Positions 5,289 to 36,761 of a DNA stretch of 36,761 nucleotides are shown one piece after another. Below the pieces are notes generated by a model. That model was not told the DNA's origin. It saw only the letters and a list, made by a program, of their open reading frames with translations, and did not search any database. Origin of the DNA: Clostridiales bacterium (GTDB taxonomy: Bacteria > Bacillota > Clostridia > Christensenellales > Aristaeellaceae); assembly GCA_012520375.1 (NCBI GenBank), contig JAAYOH010000067.1, positions 1 through 36,761 on the forward strand. The letters run 5' to 3'. The translations under genes and the position numbers were made by a program. The first letter of the stretch is position 1. Every line of letters starts with the position of its first letter.

Positions 5289-7046
5289 TTAGTAGTAACG
5301 TCCGAAGGGATTGAGCGTCAAACTGCGGAACCGCTCGGGGTCGATCTTGGGCTTCCGGTCCGGGGTGAGCAGGCCGTTGACCTCCTGCTGCACGTCGGTG
5401 AGCTGGGTATAGCAGTAGCCCTGGTTGCCCGGAATGTTCCGGGCGGCGTCGGTAAGGGCCTGGTAGCGGGCAAAGAAGGCCTCTTCGCCTTCCACCTTTT
5501 CATGGTAACCCCAGGATCCCTCCTCGCTGCCCTCGGCCTCCATGGCGATGCCGCCGTACTCGGTGAGCATCAGGGCTTCGTCCTTGCCCCGGGGATAGCC
5601 GACGGCCCGGGCCAGGCGATGATCGTTGGAGGACACCTCCACCCGCTCCATATCCGCAAAGTGGCTGGCCAGCACGTCTCCCTCCGCGGCATAGTCGTGG
5701 AGGCCGTAGATATCGGTACGGGTCTGGTCCCAGCCGTCGTTGACGCTGACCAGCCGGGTGCCGTCCTGGGCTTTGGCCTGGCAGTACAGCATCTCGGAAC
5801 ACATCTGCATGCGTTTGTCGTGGGCGATCCGGTCCACGCCCCAGGACTCGTTCAGGGGCACCCACGCGATGATGCAAGGGTGGTTGAAATCCCTGTCGAT
5901 GAAGCCGGACAGGGTATCCGACAGGTTCTTCACGCTCTCCTCGGTGAACTCATAGGCGCTGGGGAGCTCTCCCCACACCAGCACGCCCATCCTGTCCGCC
6001 CAGTAGTAGTAGCGGGGATCCTCCAGCTTCTGATGTTTCCGGGCGCCGTTGTACCCAAAGCGCTGGGTCCACTCCAGGTCCTCCCGCAGGGCCTCGTCGC
6101 TGGGGGGCGTGAGCAGGGAATCGGGCCAGTAGCCCTGGTCCAGGATCAGCCGCTGGTACAGGGGCTTGTTGTTCAGGAAGATCTGCCCGTCCCTGGATTC
6201 GATCTTTCGCATGCCGAAATAGGTCTGCACCTTGTCTCCGCCGCTCAGGGAGATGGTCAGGTCGTACAGGGAAGGATCCTCCGGAGACCAGGTATGAAAG
6301 CCGGTGATGTGTTTGCCCATCACCATGTCAAACAGGGCGCTCTGGCAGCGCTGGGTCAGCTCCAGGGTCTGCTTGCGGAAAGGCTGGCCCCTGTAGGTCA
6401 TGGTGAGCTCTGCGGTCACGGGCTGTTCGGGTTCCCGGTCCAGGGTGAGGTGTACCCGGGCGATGCCCCGGTCGATATCCGGGGTAATGTGGGCGCTGGT
6501 GAGGTAGGTGTCGCCCGCCGCCTCCAGGTACACGGTCTGCCAGATGCCGCTGGTGGGGGTGTACCAGCAGCCGAACCAATGGTCAAGCCAATTCTGCTTG
6601 CCCCGGGGCTGGGTGCAGTCCCGCCTGTCCTCCACCCGCAGGCACAGGTCGTTCTCCCCATCGATCAGGAAGGGCGTGACGTCGAAGGCGAAGGGGGTAT
6701 ATCCCCCCCGATGGCCGCCTACCGCCTGGCCGTTGAGGTACACCGTGGCCTTATAGTCCACCGCGCCAAAGCGCAGCAGAATGCGCCGGCTCGCCATGTT
6801 TTCCGGCACGGCGAAGCTGCGCCGGTACCACATGATCTCGTGCTTCCCCTCCACGTGAACGCCGCTGAGGGCGCATTCGTAGCAGAAGGGCACCAGGATG
6901 GTTCGATCCAGCTTGGTGCCGGGTTTGTACCATTTCTGTACCAGGCCCAGATTCTCGTCGTCAAAGGCAAACTGCCACTCCCCGTTCAGGTTCATCCAGT
7001 CCTCCCGGAAAAAATCCGGCCTGGGATGCTCGGGACGCGGTATCAT
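5289..7046 (-). CDS. Glycoside hydrolase family 2 (beta-glucuronidase/beta-galactosidase-like)
   Basis: 585 residues. Domain order is that of GH2: a jelly-roll sugar-binding domain (about 15-190, with NLNGEWQFAFDD and the VYLNGQAVGGHRGGYTPF turn), an immunoglobulin-like domain (about 190-290) and a TIM barrel (about 300-585). The acid/base Glu is seen in PLNESWGVD (E400) and the probable nucleophile in MLTEYGGIAME (E496). No signal peptide is visible, so it is probably cytosolic and cleaves an imported beta-linked glycoside. The start at 7046 is preceded by GGAAGGAGC at good spacing; a longer frame to 7130 would run through the promoter. It is monocistronic, with promoter and terminator visible. 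The precise substrate cannot be read from the sequence; size is closer to beta-glucuronidase than to LacZ. Confidence 0.9.
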   Translation of the reverse strand: MIPRPEHPRPDFFREDWMNLNGEWQFAFDDENLGLVQKWYKPGTKLDRTILVPFCYECALSGVHVEGKHEIMWYRRSFAVPENMASRRILLRFGAVDYKATVYLNGQAVGGHRGGYTPFAFDVTPFLIDGENDLCLRVEDRRDCTQPRGKQNWLDHWFGCWYTPTSGIWQTVYLEAAGDTYLTSAHITPDIDRGIARVHLTLDREPEQPVTAELTMTYRGQPFRKQTLELTQRCQSALFDMVMGKHITGFHTWSPEDPSLYDLTISLSGGDKVQTYFGMRKIESRDGQIFLNNKPLYQRLILDQGYWPDSLLTPPSDEALREDLEWTQRFGYNGARKHQKLEDPRYYYWADRMGVLVWGELPSAYEFTEESVKNLSDTLSGFIDRDFNHPCIIAWVPLNESWGVDRIAHDKRMQMCSEMLYCQAKAQDGTRLVSVNDGWDQTRTDIYGLHDYAAEGDVLASHFADMERVEVSSNDHRLARAVGYPRGKDEALMLTEYGGIAMEAEGSEEGSWGYHEKVEGEEAFFARYQALTDAARNIPGNQGYCYTQLTDVQQEVNGLLTPDRKPKIDPERFRSLTLNPFGRYY

Positions 7047-7217: not shown

Positions 7218-7237
7218 GGGCAAAAACGGGAGGCCCT

Positions 7238-8152
7238 ATGGACATGCTGAACACGATCACCTACCGCAGCGCCCTGCCGGAAGACGCGGAGCTCATCCTG
7301 GACTTCATCCGTCGGCTGGCAGAATATGAAAAGATGGCAGACCAGGTGACCGCCACCCCGCGGCTGTTGAAGGAATGGATCTTCGAAAAGCAGAAGGCCG
7401 AGGTCATCTTTGCCATGGTGGAGGGAAAAGAAGTGGGGTTTGCCCTGTTTTTCCACAACTTTTCCACATTCCTGGGCAAGTCGGGTCTGTACCTGGAAGA
7501 CCTCTTTGTGCTCCCCGAATACCGGGGCCGGGGGTGTGGCCGTGGCCTGCTGAAAAGGCTGGCAGCCATTGCCCTGGAGCGGGACTGCGGCCGACTGGAA
7601 TGGTGGTGCCTGGACTGGAACAAACCCGCCATCGACTTCTATCTGTCTCTGGGCGCCCGGCCCATGGAGGAATGGACGGTATTCAGGCTGGCGGGGGATG
7701 CCCTGAAGACCTTGGGGTGTTCAGAAACCGAGCGGGGGGAAGAAAACCACATCGTCAACCGCAACCGTCATGGCAATATGCTTTTGACCCGGTTCTATGT
7801 ATGCCCGGCATGCGGCAACGTCCTGCAGGCGGCGGACGAGGCCTTCATCAGCTGCTGCGGCATCGCCCTTCCTCCCCTGGAGCCCCAAGAGCCTGACGGG
7901 AATCATGCCCCCCGGTTGGAAGCGGTGGAGAACGAGCACTACGTGCGGATCCCCCATCCCATGGACAAGGAGCATTTCATCTCCTTTCTGGCCTTTGTGG
8001 GCTGTGACCGCATCCAGTTCGTCAAGTTGTATCCGGAGGGAAACGCCGACGCCCGCCTGTGTTTCCGGGGCGGCGGGCATTTGTACTGGTACTGCAACCG
8101 CCACGGGCTGATGCGTCAGAAAGTACGGCCCAAAACCACGAAAAACCTTTGA
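7238..8152 (+). CDS. GNAT acetyltransferase fused to a complete desulfoferrodoxin (superoxide reductase)
   Basis: 304 residues in one uninterrupted frame. Residues ~5-158 are a spermidine/diamine-type GNAT: acetyl-CoA motif PEYRGRGCGRGLLKRL (93-108), then WNKPAIDFYLSLGA and EEWTVFRLAG at the usual domain end. Residues ~185-295 match two-iron desulfoferrodoxin: Cys189, Cys192, Cys206 and Cys207 in the CPAC...CC pattern of the rubredoxin-like centre I, and His223, His240, His246, Cys286 and His289 (IPHPMDKEHF, YCNRHG) as the five ligands of the catalytic centre II that reduces superoxide to peroxide. The Lys before the first His ligand in the family is Asn here. GGGAGG precedes ATG 7238; ATG 7244 is also possible. 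An internal ATG at 7778 could start a separate SOR but has no clear ribosome site. Cytoplasmic. Confidence 0.85.
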   Translation: MDMLNTITYRSALPEDAELILDFIRRLAEYEKMADQVTATPRLLKEWIFEKQKAEVIFAMVEGKEVGFALFFHNFSTFLGKSGLYLEDLFVLPEYRGRGCGRGLLKRLAAIALERDCGRLEWWCLDWNKPAIDFYLSLGARPMEEWTVFRLAGDALKTLGCSETERGEENHIVNRNRHGNMLLTRFYVCPACGNVLQAADEAFISCCGIALPPLEPQEPDGNHAPRLEAVENEHYVRIPHPMDKEHFISFLAFVGCDRIQFVKLYPEGNADARLCFRGGGHLYWYCNRHGLMRQKVRPKTTKNL

Positions 8153-8254: not shown

Positions 8255-9064
8255 GTGATCATTCGGCACTCATCCGATCCCATGGAGGGATTGGCGCCAG
8301 AGGATACCTTTGTGGCCTATGACGATCTGGAGGACGAACTGGGGGAAGCCACGGTACAGAGCAACATGGCGGATATGCTGTGTCCCCGGCGGCCTCACCT
8401 GCTGCTCATCCGCGCCAAGTGTCAGCCCGAAGCCAGGGACGCCCTTCTGGGGGCAGCCACGGCCCGGGCGCTGAAACTGGCCCGCTCGGAAGAGAATGCG
8501 GCGGCCCGGATCTACACCGAGTGCCCGCCGGAAGACCAGGAACTCATGGGCATCCTCACCACCCTGGGCTATGAGGACGACGACGGGCTGTTGCGGATGC
8601 GCCGGGTGATCCAGAAGGGGCCGGTGGTAAAGCCCTTCCCCGCAGGGTGCACCCTGGTGCGGGATCATCTGGATGATGAGGACGAGCAGCGCTTCTTCCT
8701 GGAGCGCTATAACGCCATGTTTTCCCGGAACCGGGACGCCGCCTGGCTGAATGGGATCCGGGCCAAGCCGGATTTCCTGCGCCTGTTGGTTGTATCGCCG
8801 GATGGTTTGGCAGGAGAACTTTTGATCTGGACCGAAGGCGGCCAGGGTGTGGTGGGCATCGTCCAGACCACTCCTTCCTGGCAACGCAAAGGGGTGGGCA
8901 GCTACCTCGTGGACTGTGCCCGCAGCCACTGGGCGCGCCTGGGGGTACGGGAGGCCTATTTCGACGTGTGGACCCGGCTCACCGGCGCGGTGCGGCTGGC
9001 GGCCACTTCGGGTTTCCGCCCGGACGAAATGCTTATGCGCTATCCGGGCATCGATATCGGGTAA
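8255..9064 (+). CDS. GNAT-family N-acetyltransferase
   Basis: 269 residues. The C-terminal half carries the GNAT core: a beta strand GVVGIVQTTPSWQ leading into the acetyl-CoA-binding QRKGVGSYLVDCA, then a helix and the strand REAYFDVW and a terminal AATSGFRPDEML. The N-terminal ~125 residues resemble a second, degenerate GNAT-like fold (RARDALLGAATARALKLA-type helix after RPHLLLIRA), so it may be a tandem-GNAT protein. The GTG at 8255 is chosen because GGGAGGG lies 8 bases before it and the promoter at 8180-8208 precedes it; the frame continues upstream to an ATG at 8180 inside the promoter, which is rejected. The acceptor substrate is unknown. asd follows after 23 bases. Confidence 0.8.
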   Translation: MIIRHSSDPMEGLAPEDTFVAYDDLEDELGEATVQSNMADMLCPRRPHLLLIRAKCQPEARDALLGAATARALKLARSEENAAARIYTECPPEDQELMGILTTLGYEDDDGLLRMRRVIQKGPVVKPFPAGCTLVRDHLDDEDEQRFFLERYNAMFSRNRDAAWLNGIRAKPDFLRLLVVSPDGLAGELLIWTEGGQGVVGIVQTTPSWQRKGVGSYLVDCARSHWARLGVREAYFDVWTRLTGAVRLAATSGFRPDEMLMRYPGIDIG

Positions 9065-14661: not shown

Positions 14662-17184
14662 TTATTGTACCACAATTCGTAGTCTGGACCCAACCAGTTC
14701 CGCCTTCCATTGTTCGGCCTGGGATACGGGGACGGTCAAGAATGTATGCGGGTTATCCCATGTGTACCCCATTACGTCTTCACCCAGCGCCGGCATGACA
14801 TCGCAGTTGACGATGATTTCCAGATCCTCGCCGGCATTCCAATCCCCGCAGCGATACAGGCATCGAAAGCCCATCGTCGACACGCTTTTCCCGATCGTTA
14901 TTTGTTTCAGGGCAGAAGCGTAGGCAAATGCGTAATCGCTGAGGAGGGTCACATTGTCGCCAACGATGATGTGTTCAATTTGTGCCAGGTTGGCGGCCCA
15001 CGGGGCATTGGTTTGCGTAGCTGCTTCCGCATTCTCCTGATCTGGCTGATAGGCAACCATCGCCGCATCGCTGTCGATCGTCAGCGTACGGGTTGATTCG
15101 TCATAATGCCATCCTTCTGTGACGTGTACAGGACCTGACGTGTTTTCCCTCCGTTCCGGTTCGCCAAGGCTGAAATCCTTTTCCCGCAGGTTGGGATAAA
15201 TCTCCGCCACGGGGGAGTAGTCCGTAAAAGGATTGTCATGCAGTTCCAGAATGGTGAGCTTCGTGAGGTTCGCGAGAGGGGAAATATCCATGACGTTGTT
15301 GGAAAACACAGAGAACGTTTCGAGGTTTACCAGGTTTGAAACCGGCGCCAGATCGGAAATATTGTTCTCCCAGAATACCGCCCAGGTGAGTTGGATCATG
15401 TCAGTAAGCGGTGAAAGGTCCGAGATGTTGTTTTTCGGCGCTTCAAGGTAGTAGAGCTTTTTCAGCGCCGAAATCGGGCTGAGGTCGGAGACAGCGTTGC
15501 AGCCGATGTCGAGCCGTTCGAGGTTCGGGAAGTACTTGAGGTCGGCGAGGCTGCGGATCTTCTCCGGCTCAGGGATTTCTCCGTAGGGATAATCCCAGTT
15601 GTTGAAGATGAGTTCCGTGACATCGATCAATTCGGATGGATCGATGTCTCCCTCCGGCCTTTGCAGCATCTTGCGCACGCGTTTTTCGAACATGGGATCC
15701 TCAAACATCGAATCTTCGCTATGCACCGCAGAGGGGAAATCATCGCCCGGCGCAGGCGGAAGGGATTCGAGCGCTTCATCCGGGACTTCGAAATCCCTGG
15801 CTTCCAGGTTCGGATAAATCCCCGCGAGCGGCGAATAGTCAGCGACCGGGCATCCCTCCAGAAACAGAACCTTCAGGTTGGTCAGATTTGCAAGCGGAGA
15901 AACATCCTCCACGAGACAGTTTTTCAAGCCCAGATTGTACAGTTTCGCAAGCCCCGCAAGCGGCGTCAAATCGCGGACCGGGCAATTTTCGGCGCCTAAA
16001 AACCCCAGATCCACCAGACCTGAAAGCGGGGAGAGATCCTCGACGGGGCAGAAGTCGATGTTCAAATAGTCGAGGTTCACAAGGCCAGCCAGCGGGGAGA
16101 GATCACTGACCTGCAGGAAGCCGATAAACAGCGATTTGAGCTTCGTGAGCCCGGACAGCGCGCTCAGGTCGGTGATTGGGTTTGAGTTGAATTCCAGTTG
16201 CTCGAGGTTCACGAAGTATTTCAGCGGAGAAATATCGGAGAACATCGATTCCTCGGTCTTTTCGTTGTGTAGCGCGAGGGTCCGGGTCAGGTACGCGTCC
16301 CGCTGGGTGATCGGTCGGTCGTAAATGTTCATTGCGCGTCGGAGCGCCGCCTCAAACGCGGGCTCGGCGATCTCGATCGGTATGTCGGGCGCATCCTCGG
16401 CAAAAAGCGGCTCGAAATCGCGGTCGATAATGTTTGGCATCCATTCCCGGATCGGCTCGAAGTCGGTCACAGGGTTCCCCGCGAGCCGAAGAGATGTGAG
16501 CTTTGAAAGATCCGACAGCGCGCTCAGGTCGGAAATGTTGTTGTTCGTTAGGTCGAGCGTCTCGAGATTCAAAAGACCGGCGAGCGCGGAGATGTCTTCG
16601 ATCCGGTTGTCCCGCAAATACAGCGTGTGCAGGTTTGGAAGTCCCGAAACCGGCGACAGATCCGAGGTTTCGGCAATGTCGCTGATCTGCAGGATCCCCA
16701 GGTTTTCAAGCTCCGCGATCGGCGAAAGGTCGGAAACCGGATTTCCGTCAAGGGCAAGTATGCGCAGGTTTTTAAGCCCTCGGATCGGTTCCAGGTCGCG
16801 GATATCCTGCCCGAACGCCTCGAACTTGAACAGATTCGTGAAATACCGGAGCACCTCGATGCTGTGGATCTTCTCCTCGTTCGGCTGCCCGTTGTAGGAC
16901 GCATACAGGTCCCCCTGGAAGGATCTGGCATCCCCATAGGTCACATCGCCCTCGGGTTTTCCGATGGTTTCCCGGATCCTCGCCTCGAGCACCGGATCGT
17001 CGAAGACGATTGCGCTCTCGTCGCTGATTTGGTCAGGCAAAAAGTCGCTCTCGGACAGGTTTGGTATGATGTGTCCCGGAACCGGGTCGGCGAATGCGCT
17101 ATCCTCTTCTCGGGGTTCCTCAGCGTACCCTACGATCGACAGCGCCAACAGGATTGCCAGCAACAGATACAGAATCCTACGCAT
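14662..17184 (-). CDS. Secreted internalin-like leucine-rich repeat protein with three repeat modules
   Basis: 840 residues. A Sec signal peptide (RRILYLLLAILLALSIVGYA) is followed by three modules, each made of an alpha cap of the type DDPVLEARIRETIGKPEGD (about 62-80, 273-287, 495-513), a run of 20-22-residue SDS22/internalin repeats (xxISDLSPLxxLxxL) and a closing IYPNLEARDFE-like strand (about 249-259, 456-466, 662-671). A C-terminal domain (about 690-840) contains BspA-like strands (IEHIIVGDNVTLLSDYAFAYASALKQITI). No LPXTG motif or transmembrane anchor is seen, so it is secreted or loosely surface-bound; a protein- or glycan-binding role is inference. The ATG at 17184 has GGGAGGG upstream; longer start at 17214 gives a poor signal peptide. 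The SH3-repeat gene lies 183 bases upstream on the same strand. Confidence 0.88.
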   Translation of the reverse strand: MRRILYLLLAILLALSIVGYAEEPREEDSAFADPVPGHIIPNLSESDFLPDQISDESAIVFDDPVLEARIRETIGKPEGDVTYGDARSFQGDLYASYNGQPNEEKIHSIEVLRYFTNLFKFEAFGQDIRDLEPIRGLKNLRILALDGNPVSDLSPIAELENLGILQISDIAETSDLSPVSGLPNLHTLYLRDNRIEDISALAGLLNLETLDLTNNNISDLSALSDLSKLTSLRLAGNPVTDFEPIREWMPNIIDRDFEPLFAEDAPDIPIEIAEPAFEAALRRAMNIYDRPITQRDAYLTRTLALHNEKTEESMFSDISPLKYFVNLEQLEFNSNPITDLSALSGLTKLKSLFIGFLQVSDLSPLAGLVNLDYLNIDFCPVEDLSPLSGLVDLGFLGAENCPVRDLTPLAGLAKLYNLGLKNCLVEDVSPLANLTNLKVLFLEGCPVADYSPLAGIYPNLEARDFEVPDEALESLPPAPGDDFPSAVHSEDSMFEDPMFEKRVRKMLQRPEGDIDPSELIDVTELIFNNWDYPYGEIPEPEKIRSLADLKYFPNLERLDIGCNAVSDLSPISALKKLYYLEAPKNNISDLSPLTDMIQLTWAVFWENNISDLAPVSNLVNLETFSVFSNNVMDISPLANLTKLTILELHDNPFTDYSPVAEIYPNLREKDFSLGEPERRENTSGPVHVTEGWHYDESTRTLTIDSDAAMVAYQPDQENAEAATQTNAPWAANLAQIEHIIVGDNVTLLSDYAFAYASALKQITIGKSVSTMGFRCLYRCGDWNAGEDLEIIVNCDVMPALGEDVMGYTWDNPHTFLTVPVSQAEQWKAELVGSRLRIVVQ

Positions 17185-17367
17185 GTAACACCCTCCCACT
17201 CGTTTCATGAGCATACTTCAGGGGTATCGTTCCAATGAATGTAATTTGGGAATATGTTCTCCTTTTTCATCCACAAAGGCCACGCGGGAAAATTGTATCC
17301 GGGGTTTTCATGGATCGGCGATCAACTATCACCTCCCATATGCGATAGTGCAGGGTCTTTCTTCGAT

Positions 17368-35124: not shown

Positions 35125-36761
35125 ATGGACGCAATAAATTTTGAAGCATTATTTTCGAAAGACATATACCAGCTGCCTATTCGTTGGGATGGAAAGAATT
35201 TTTATGCAACGCTATACAACCATCTGAAAAGGTACCGCGAAGACATAGAGAAGTATTGTGACGATCCCTTTTTATGCACTGTGGTGAAAACTGTTTGCCG
35301 AAATATATGCGCCGCCGTAGACTTCAGCTTCAGGGGGTATCCGGGAAAAGCTTACAGGAGTTTTGAAAGTGTAATGGAGCTTCTCGGAAAAGATCCATTA
35401 CTGATTAAAAAGGAGAACATTAACAAGGAACAATTGTACCGTGTTGTTGATGTCGGAAATGCTACCGTACCTACCCGTCAAAGGAACTTTCATGTTCCAT
35501 TCAGCATGCGATCACGAATGTCAACCCAGAGATATAGTATACCGGGATTTCCCAGCCTTTATCTTGGCACATCGGCTGAATTGTGCTGCATGGAATTAGG
35601 GAAAGATCCGCAGCGGGATTATGTTTGTGTGTCACGCTATGAACTACAGATCGATAAACGTATAGTTCACCGTGCATTAGACGACCAGAAAAACGATCAG
35701 CATCCTGTGTTTGATAATGATCAGTTCATAATTTTCGATGTTTCTCTAAAACCGGATAAAGCAATAGAGAAACTAGACCGTGATGACAATAAGGACGTTA
35801 AAAAATTCATCAGAAAATATATTAAGTGGTATCCGCTTATATCCGCCTGCTCATATATACGTGCTATGCGTGATGCCCCTTATTCAGCCGAATATATAAT
35901 ACCACAGCTGTTTATCCAATGGGTACGCTCAAAATATGAAGATGCGGTCATAGGCATCAAGTATTTCTCCTGCGCGTCTGTCTATTCATCGAGCCTTGGC
36001 TATAACTACGTATTCCCCACTATAGGTATTCCGTATCATGCTCGGAAAACCATAACCGATTACTGTGCAAGACTATCACACAGGTTTAAGCTTACTATTC
36101 CAAAGTTTACAATGGAATATAATTCTATCATCGACTGCGTAGAAGTGATAAAAAAAGATAATAATCTTGACTACATAGAGGGTTATAACAACGGCGAAGA
36201 CGAAGAAATTCAAGGAGACTACACGATACCTGAAGGCGTGTCTACGATTGGTGCGTTTGCCTTCCATGGCTGTAGCTCACTGACAAGTATCAACATCCCG
36301 GATAGTGTGACTAACATCGGTACGTTTGCCTTCTATAACTGCAACTCACTTAAAAGCATAAACATCCCGGACAGTGTAACGTGTATTGGTGCGTTTGGCT
36401 TCGATAACTGTAGCTCATTGACAAGTATCAACATCCCGGATAGTGTGATAAGCATCGGGGATGGGGCATTCTCTGGCTGTTGCTTACTAAAAAGCGTCAA
36501 CATTCCAGGTAGTGTGAAAAGCATCAATATCTTTGCCTTTGCTAATTGTAGCTTGCTGAAAAGAATCACCATCCCAGACAGTGTGACTAACATCAGGAAA
36601 GGTACCTTCACAGGTTGCAGTTCACTGAAAAGCATAAACATCCCAGACAACGTAACAAGCATCGGTGAAAGTGCCTTCTTTAACTGTAGCTCGCTAGTAA
36701 GCATCACTATCCCAGACAGTGTGACTAACATCGGAAAAAGTGCCTTCTCTAGCTGTAGTTC
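35125..36761 (+). CDS. RES-domain (NAD+-consuming toxin-like) protein with BspA-like leucine-rich repeats, 3' end outside window
   Basis: At least 545 codons with no stop before the window end. After an ~100-residue helical N-terminal part, residues ~105-330 look like a RES domain: LYRVVD (R106), the very typical FHVPFSMRSRMSTQRYSIPG (R136) and SLYLGTS (Y146), CCMELG (E157) and IGIKYFSCAS (S282), matching the Arg-Glu-Ser set of the family, whose studied toxins degrade NAD+. From residue ~368 come at least eight 23-residue BspA-like repeats (IPDSVTNIGxxAFxxCSSLKSI). No signal peptide or membrane segment, so it is probably cytosolic. ATG 35125 has AAGGACGGGG upstream. AT-rich codon use differs sharply from the neighbours and suggests transfer. 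An antitoxin or partner may lie beyond the window. The RES call is by motif recognition, not a search. Confidence 0.75.
   Translation, partial: MDAINFEALFSKDIYQLPIRWDGKNFYATLYNHLKRYREDIEKYCDDPFLCTVVKTVCRNICAAVDFSFRGYPGKAYRSFESVMELLGKDPLLIKKENINKEQLYRVVDVGNATVPTRQRNFHVPFSMRSRMSTQRYSIPGFPSLYLGTSAELCCMELGKDPQRDYVCVSRYELQIDKRIVHRALDDQKNDQHPVFDNDQFIIFDVSLKPDKAIEKLDRDDNKDVKKFIRKYIKWYPLISACSYIRAMRDAPYSAEYIIPQLFIQWVRSKYEDAVIGIKYFSCASVYSSSLGYNYVFPTIGIPYHARKTITDYCARLSHRFKLTIPKFTMEYNSIIDCVEVIKKDNNLDYIEGYNNGEDEEIQGDYTIPEGVSTIGAFAFHGCSSLTSINIPDSVTNIGTFAFYNCNSLKSINIPDSVTCIGAFGFDNCSSLTSINIPDSVISIGDGAFSGCCLLKSVNIPGSVKSINIFAFANCSLLKRITIPDSVTNIRKGTFTGCSSLKSINIPDNVTSIGESAFFNCSSLVSITIPDSVTNIGKSAFSSCS
36226..36761 (+). 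repeat. 69-bp coding repeats (BspA-like leucine-rich repeat units)
   Basis: Eight units of 69 bases (23 codons) run in frame to the window edge, with shared blocks such as AACATCCCGGATAGTGTGA. The fourth to sixth units are more diverged, while the first three and last two are closest to one another. Confidence 0.85.

Follow-up and report, generated by a model that had tools for sequence, protein, structure and literature searches.

Canonical desulfoferrodoxins, or two-iron superoxide reductases (2Fe-SOR; 1dfx, 2ji1), have a CX2CX15CC motif, a Glu-Lys pair and a comparatively long stretch between the first two of their iron-binding histidines. The Glu-Lys pair, which precedes the first histidine, is catalytic in canonical Dx-SOR proteins, and a 2001 paper in Biochemistry reportedly took Glu47 and Lys48 as its subject. 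Desulfoferrodoxins are dimers, as are XRE regulators and SSAT-like GNAT acetyltransferases. Two classes published in SORGOdb, as described in the accessible part of PMC3116461, resemble the locus that we analyzed: the HTH-Dx-SOR class (19 proteins in 2011), whose members bear an N-terminal HTH domain, and the Atypical-SOR class (10 proteins in 2011), which gathers exceptional domain fusions or mutated Dx and includes Kcr_1172 with its C-terminal redoxin-like module.

Our locus lies in the window, that is, the whole 36,761-nucleotide stretch of Clostridiales DNA that was analyzed (contig JAAYOH010000067.1 of assembly GCA_012520375.1). It shares with the HTH-Dx-SOR class the module sequence, its spacing, the stretch preceding it and its place in a tree, but it carries a GNAT acetyltransferase domain where the class has the HTH. 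Being an exceptional fusion that contains a SOR unit, it also fits the Atypical-SOR class, although its partner is an N-terminal GNAT rather than a C-terminal redoxin-like module. The main text of PMC3116461 nowhere uses the word 'acetyltransferase', and we found no published GNAT-SOR fusion in the literature searched, a claim that we hold to be a weak one. Treponema TrtA was set aside, since PMC12724145 describes it as a 104-residue protein whose XRE HTH is its sole recognized domain. The features of the locus are as follows.

7228-7233, forward strand: Shine-Dalgarno-like GGGAGG, read from the sequence
7238-7717, forward strand: GNAT acetyltransferase domain, residues 1-160 (PF00583, phmmer, profile of standalone relatives)
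7718-7738, forward strand: linker at the junction, residues 161-167 (7 residues), outside both parent profile alignments
7739-8149, forward strand: Dx-SOR module of the HTH-Dx-SOR type, residues 168-304 (profile, AlphaFold2, VIA-align)
7802-7858, forward strand: center I cysteines Cys189, Cys192, Cys206 and Cys207, CX2CX13CC (alignment columns)
7898-7906, forward strand: Gly221-Asn222-His223, the first center II histidine, with Gly-Asn replacing the canonical Glu-Lys (alignment columns)
7955-8104, forward strand: the other center II ligands His240, His246, Cys286 and His289 (alignment columns)

The two parts are read in a single open frame on the forward strand (7238-8152), stop-free through 304 codons, which bears out the in-frame fusion of 304 residues claimed in the earlier note; neither a stop nor a frameshift, for which a check of residues 160-185 had been set, is present in the translation. 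The GNAT profile alignment stops at residue 160 and that of the Dx-SOR profile starts at residue 168. By eye, the GGGAGG motif sits 4 and 10 bases 5′ of two ATGs that are in frame, at 7238 and 7244, and no ribosome-binding site is seen upstream of the internal ATG at 7778; a single product is thus the simplest expectation, and separate translation of the two halves was set aside. Between positions 7000 and 8320, the sole promoter-like site found runs from 7130 to 7102 on the opposite strand.

Judged by its sequence, the N-terminal half is a member of a standalone thialysine/diamine-type GNAT family present in related bacteria. It matched PF00583 in a Pfam scan (7.1e-18) and, by phmmer, the thialysine acetyltransferase 12jc (9e-47, residues 6-159) as well as 2fe7 (4.5e-47), with likeness to these SSAT-like enzymes across the whole GNAT domain, and it scored 278.5 bits over residues 5-160—far above chance—against a profile of 18 standalone relatives. 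The spermidine/diamine-type GNAT recognized before is supported, as one of the SSAT/thialysine type. Standalone relatives (a GNAT of ~160 residues) are 58-72% identical among the best matches listed for the family, order and class sets (60-71% for the top family rows with further occurrences in order and class); they stop at or shortly after the domain, whereas the fusion protein runs on into the Dx-SOR module. At E 1e-62 or better, GNAT matches occur in 18 of 396 order genomes and 20 of 391 class genomes besides the window genome, and all of these, among the matches listed, end by residue 169. Of 62 near-invariant columns, 4 are changed in the GNAT half of the fusion (Lys to Arg, Gly to Asp, Ser to Ala and Tyr to Phe), compared with a maximum of 3 among 29 relatives, which could reflect relaxed constraint. 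In genome G079, a gene on the reverse strand (L114:7183-8034) carries the same GNAT family fused C-terminally to a MazG domain (PF03819, 2.7e-8).

The C-terminal half, on sequence grounds, is a module of the published HTH-Dx-SOR class and not the ordinary superoxide reductase that it had been taken for. Against a profile of HTH-Dx-SOR proteins (141 sequences, including copies of single genes from overlapping loci) the fusion scored 185.9 bits over residues 168-296, likewise far above chance, entering at profile position 79 of 209, just past the HTH domain, where the match begins. No HTH was found in the fusion itself, either with an HTH profile (-1.5 bits) or as any HTH family in a Pfam scan at E 1. 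Its scores against the curated models fell below their cut-offs (35.3 versus 146.9 bits for TIGR00320, 19.1 versus 22.2 bits for PF01880); for this reason, and for two spacings that depart from the canonical ones, the earlier description as a 'complete two-iron superoxide reductase' was too strong.

To place the module we drew on a scan of genome contigs (61 loci) together with a family search (200 genomes), from which identical sequences were removed. A match to the module was then present in 159 distinct ORFs: 137 near full length (at least 100 bits), 15 canonical, and seven pieces that were excluded (two in L059, one each in L061, L181 and L228, and two in L207); L062, with an ORF of 56 residues, fell under the 60-residue limit and was likewise excluded. 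An XRE-type HTH precedes the module in 136 of the 137 near-full-length ORFs, and the one with a GNAT is the fusion. Outside these counts stand 20 weaker matches added later from the family search, 19 of them standalone and canonical-type (55 to 76 bits) and one a fragment (L244); none of these 20, some of which lie in long open frames, had an HTH or GNAT match. In both L059 and L207, an HTH-Dx-SOR gene appears to be split into two ORFs. The neighborhoods of HTH-Dx-SOR genes (785 ORFs in the regions) offered no useful conserved neighbor: the second commonest cluster (16 loci) looks like antisense shadow ORFs of the HTH-Dx-SOR gene itself, and all later clusters comprise at most 6 loci.

A tree of the module, built by a quick method with SH-aLRT support from 71 of the 136 HTH-type rows, the 15 canonical proteins and the fusion, split off the canonical proteins with a support of 100 and nested the fusion module among the HTH-type rows, close to L007, L002 and L003. 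The grouping of the fusion with L002 and L007 received a support of 90 and its pairing with L007 alone 33, in a tree of few columns that leaves open 32 of its 83 inner branches. The branch of the fusion module (0.37) falls between the median (0.27) and the 90th percentile (0.55) of the HTH rows, and the module departs from one of 19 near-invariant columns, a count that 36 of the 136 members match or exceed. Given this usual number of changes and an ordinary branch, the module is not visibly decaying.

All four center I cysteines and all five center II ligands of the earlier description hold up, nine of nine aligning with canonical ligands. That the lysine next to the first histidine is replaced by asparagine was likewise correctly seen (Asn222), but the change is a trait of the class rather than peculiar to the fusion, and Gly221, which replaces the canonical Glu, had gone unmentioned. 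All 15 canonical rows have the Glu-Lys pair before the first histidine, as does one of 136 HTH-type rows; at these positions, HTH-type proteins have Lys in 1/136 and Glu in 63/136. The absence of the lysine from the fusion is therefore inherited from a class that lost it. Spacings agree: 13 residues separate the second and third cysteines in the fusion and in all 136 HTH-type proteins, compared with 15 in 15/15 canonical ones, and 16 (134/136) or 17 (2/136) residues lie between the first two histidines in HTH-type proteins, compared with 19 in the canonical set (15/15), this stretch being three residues shorter than canonical in the fusion.

All nine ligands are kept in 104 of the 136 HTH-type proteins and at least one is missing in the remaining 32, which argues that the iron sites are not absolutely constrained in the class. 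The last histidine is Asp in 24/136. We observed a coupled change in ten HTH-type proteins (L038, L128, L129, L130, L194, L196, L201, L202, L205 and L206), in which the fourth center I cysteine is His and, in ten of ten, the last center II histidine is also Asp. Three further HTH-Dx-SOR-like sequences (L056, L057 and L225) have lost several center II ligands, including the cysteine, and kept the four center I cysteines.

Structure prediction agrees with a desulfoferrodoxin fold for the module. Residues 168-304 were modeled by AlphaFold2 with a pLDDT of 84.8, and the predicted module aligned nearly full length with desulfoferrodoxins, in VIA-align with 1y07 (Z 14.3) and 1dfx (Z 13.2, 114 aligned, rmsd 2.9), and in Foldseek with 2ji2 (1.7e-8). 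It thus shares with canonical desulfoferrodoxins (1dfx, 2ji1) the predicted fold and the nine iron ligands, but differs from them in its CX2CX13CC motif, its Gly-Asn pair and its shorter stretch between the first two histidines. A full-length AlphaFold2 model reached a pLDDT of 62.7 overall and left the GNAT half, the part without alignment rows, unfolded.

The earlier note had called for a survey of related genomes to see whether they share the fusion. We found no second case: among the matches listed, the fusion occurs in 1/200 family, 1/396 order and 1/391 class genomes—sets that overlap—and each time it is the window itself; for the order and class sets, this holds for matches at E 1e-62 or better, a level that a more diverged fusion could escape. 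The draft genome of the window (95% complete) has no other HTH-Dx-SOR gene and no second copy of the GNAT at E 0.001, and at the same level G049, a genome of the same genus (89% complete), lacks both the GNAT and the Dx-SOR module. IMG/VR gave no other fusion of the module: 45 of its stretches fit a pattern, none of them a relative. Four records of a plasmid collection matched; there, one is labeled an HTH protein, another a desulfoferrodoxin, and two have no annotation. GNAT and HTH-Dx-SOR genes were never adjacent in 20 GNAT and 20 Dx-SOR regions of 5 to 20 kb each, the Dx-SOR region of L117 having only a distant GNAT (27% identical) ~5 kb off.

The explanation that we favor, although taken whole it falls somewhat short of an even chance, is a domain swap that placed a Dx-SOR module acting as an iron-based redox sensor on an acetyltransferase. 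The profiles and the tree support well an origin by exchange of the HTH for the GNAT: in an ancestor, a standalone thialysine/diamine-type GNAT coding sequence would have been joined in frame at the point where the HTH domain of an HTH-Dx-SOR gene ends, thereby replacing the DNA-binding part with an acetyltransferase, and such a swap would be easier because all three kinds of domain are dimeric. Superoxide or another oxidant may then bind to, or react with, the two iron sites of the module, and their altered state would be passed to the N-terminal effector domain of the dimer—presumably the HTH in the relatives and the GNAT in the fusion—so that the protein would acetylate a small amine in response to oxidative or iron status.

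Ligands kept in 104/136 relatives and a lysine kept in 1/136 are as expected if a sensor needs metal and not fast turnover. Because the genome also encodes one further module match, a separate canonical Dx-SOR (PF01880, 73 bits), the fusion would not be required for bulk superoxide reduction; this gene and the lack of visible decay in the fusion module count for a sensor. Against it count the occurrence of the fusion in a single genome, the 32/136 relatives without some ligand and the 4/62 deviating columns of the GNAT half, and the literature searched yielded no experiment in which an HTH-Dx-SOR module senses anything. A redox or iron sensor tethered to the acetyltransferase is nonetheless the most likely role of the module, with an uncoupled tether nearly as likely. 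The canonical Dx-SOR starts five bases downstream of an ORF (L001:212-1761) that combines ferredoxin, rubredoxin and rubrerythrin domains.

Such an uncoupled tether would have arisen by a chance deletion or rearrangement, with the halves working or idling separately and the module not regulating the GNAT. It is a serious contender, if one that we would still not expect to prevail. A single case among 200 family genomes (among the matches listed) fits it, as does the joining of the same GNAT to an unrelated MazG domain in G079, which argues that no redox link is needed for this GNAT to become fused at its C-terminus; nor is a functional link visible in the relatives, where GNAT and HTH-Dx-SOR genes were never neighbors in the 20 + 20 regions. 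What speaks against an uncoupled tether is that the module retains its nine ligands with the usual number of changes and that the GNAT half appears complete in sequence.

Less likely than the uncoupled tether, and improbable in its own right, is the bifunctional enzyme of the earlier note, in which a true superoxide reductase and an acetyltransferase would serve one stress response in a single protein, with polyamine acetylation under oxidative stress as a possible link. The intact five center II ligands and four center I cysteines would suit it, and so would the predicted desulfoferrodoxin fold (Z 13.2 to 1dfx). However, the canonical Glu-Lys is Gly-Asn, with the lysine also missing in 135/136 relatives, the stretch between the first two histidines is three residues shorter, and the same genome has a canonical Dx-SOR gene at another site.

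The genomic surroundings bear on whether the joint exists in the cell at all. Downstream of the fusion lie a divergent second GNAT-like gene (GNAT2; 8258-9064, forward strand; 268 residues read, with C-terminal GNAT matches below Pfam cut-offs), genes that we take by eye to be asd and rpiB, and two more, in an order that is kept in G049 with one extra, presumably dapA-like ORF between asd and rpiB. GNAT2 adjoins asd in the window, G049 and G045. Upstream of GNAT2, where the window has the fusion, G049 carries a gene for an iron-dependent repressor on the opposite strand. In G079, the GNAT-MazG gene immediately precedes a GNAT2 relative and an ORF that by eye is dapA-like. Elsewhere in the window, two long ORFs (14662-17214, reverse strand; 35125-36759, forward strand) have leucine-rich-repeat-like sequence as judged by eye. 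A false assembly join between two genes that lie apart in the cell, one for a GNAT and one for an HTH-Dx-SOR protein, is unlikely, and has the least chance of the readings considered: the genome is a draft of 106 contigs, the fusion is in one assembly, and G049 has neither half at E 0.001 and a different gene upstream of the shared GNAT2-asd block, but the joint is in frame and brings the natural end of a GNAT to the natural start of a module, and, with downstream gene order kept in G049 (bar the one ORF between asd and rpiB) and a GNAT gene beside the GNAT2 relative in G079 (one of 20 GNAT regions, and so weak support for the GNAT belonging at this place), two separate errors around ~430 bases would probably be required to create such a join.

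Returning to the sensor reading, the presence of a GNAT on a module of the HTH-Dx-SOR type may suggest a portable redox sensor module. We regard it as possible but doubtful that modules of this class are general, transplantable iron-based redox sensors and that the fusion is a natural redox-gated acetyltransferase, with superoxide or oxidized iron turning its acetylation of a small amine on or off. Should the module not regulate its partner, the fusion would be a private one of little consequence. If it does, superoxide or iron sensing would become a candidate function for the HTH-Dx-SOR proteins of Clostridia and their relatives, and the natural swap would offer a ready test, with the same sensor placed on a directly assayable enzyme instead of a DNA-binding domain.
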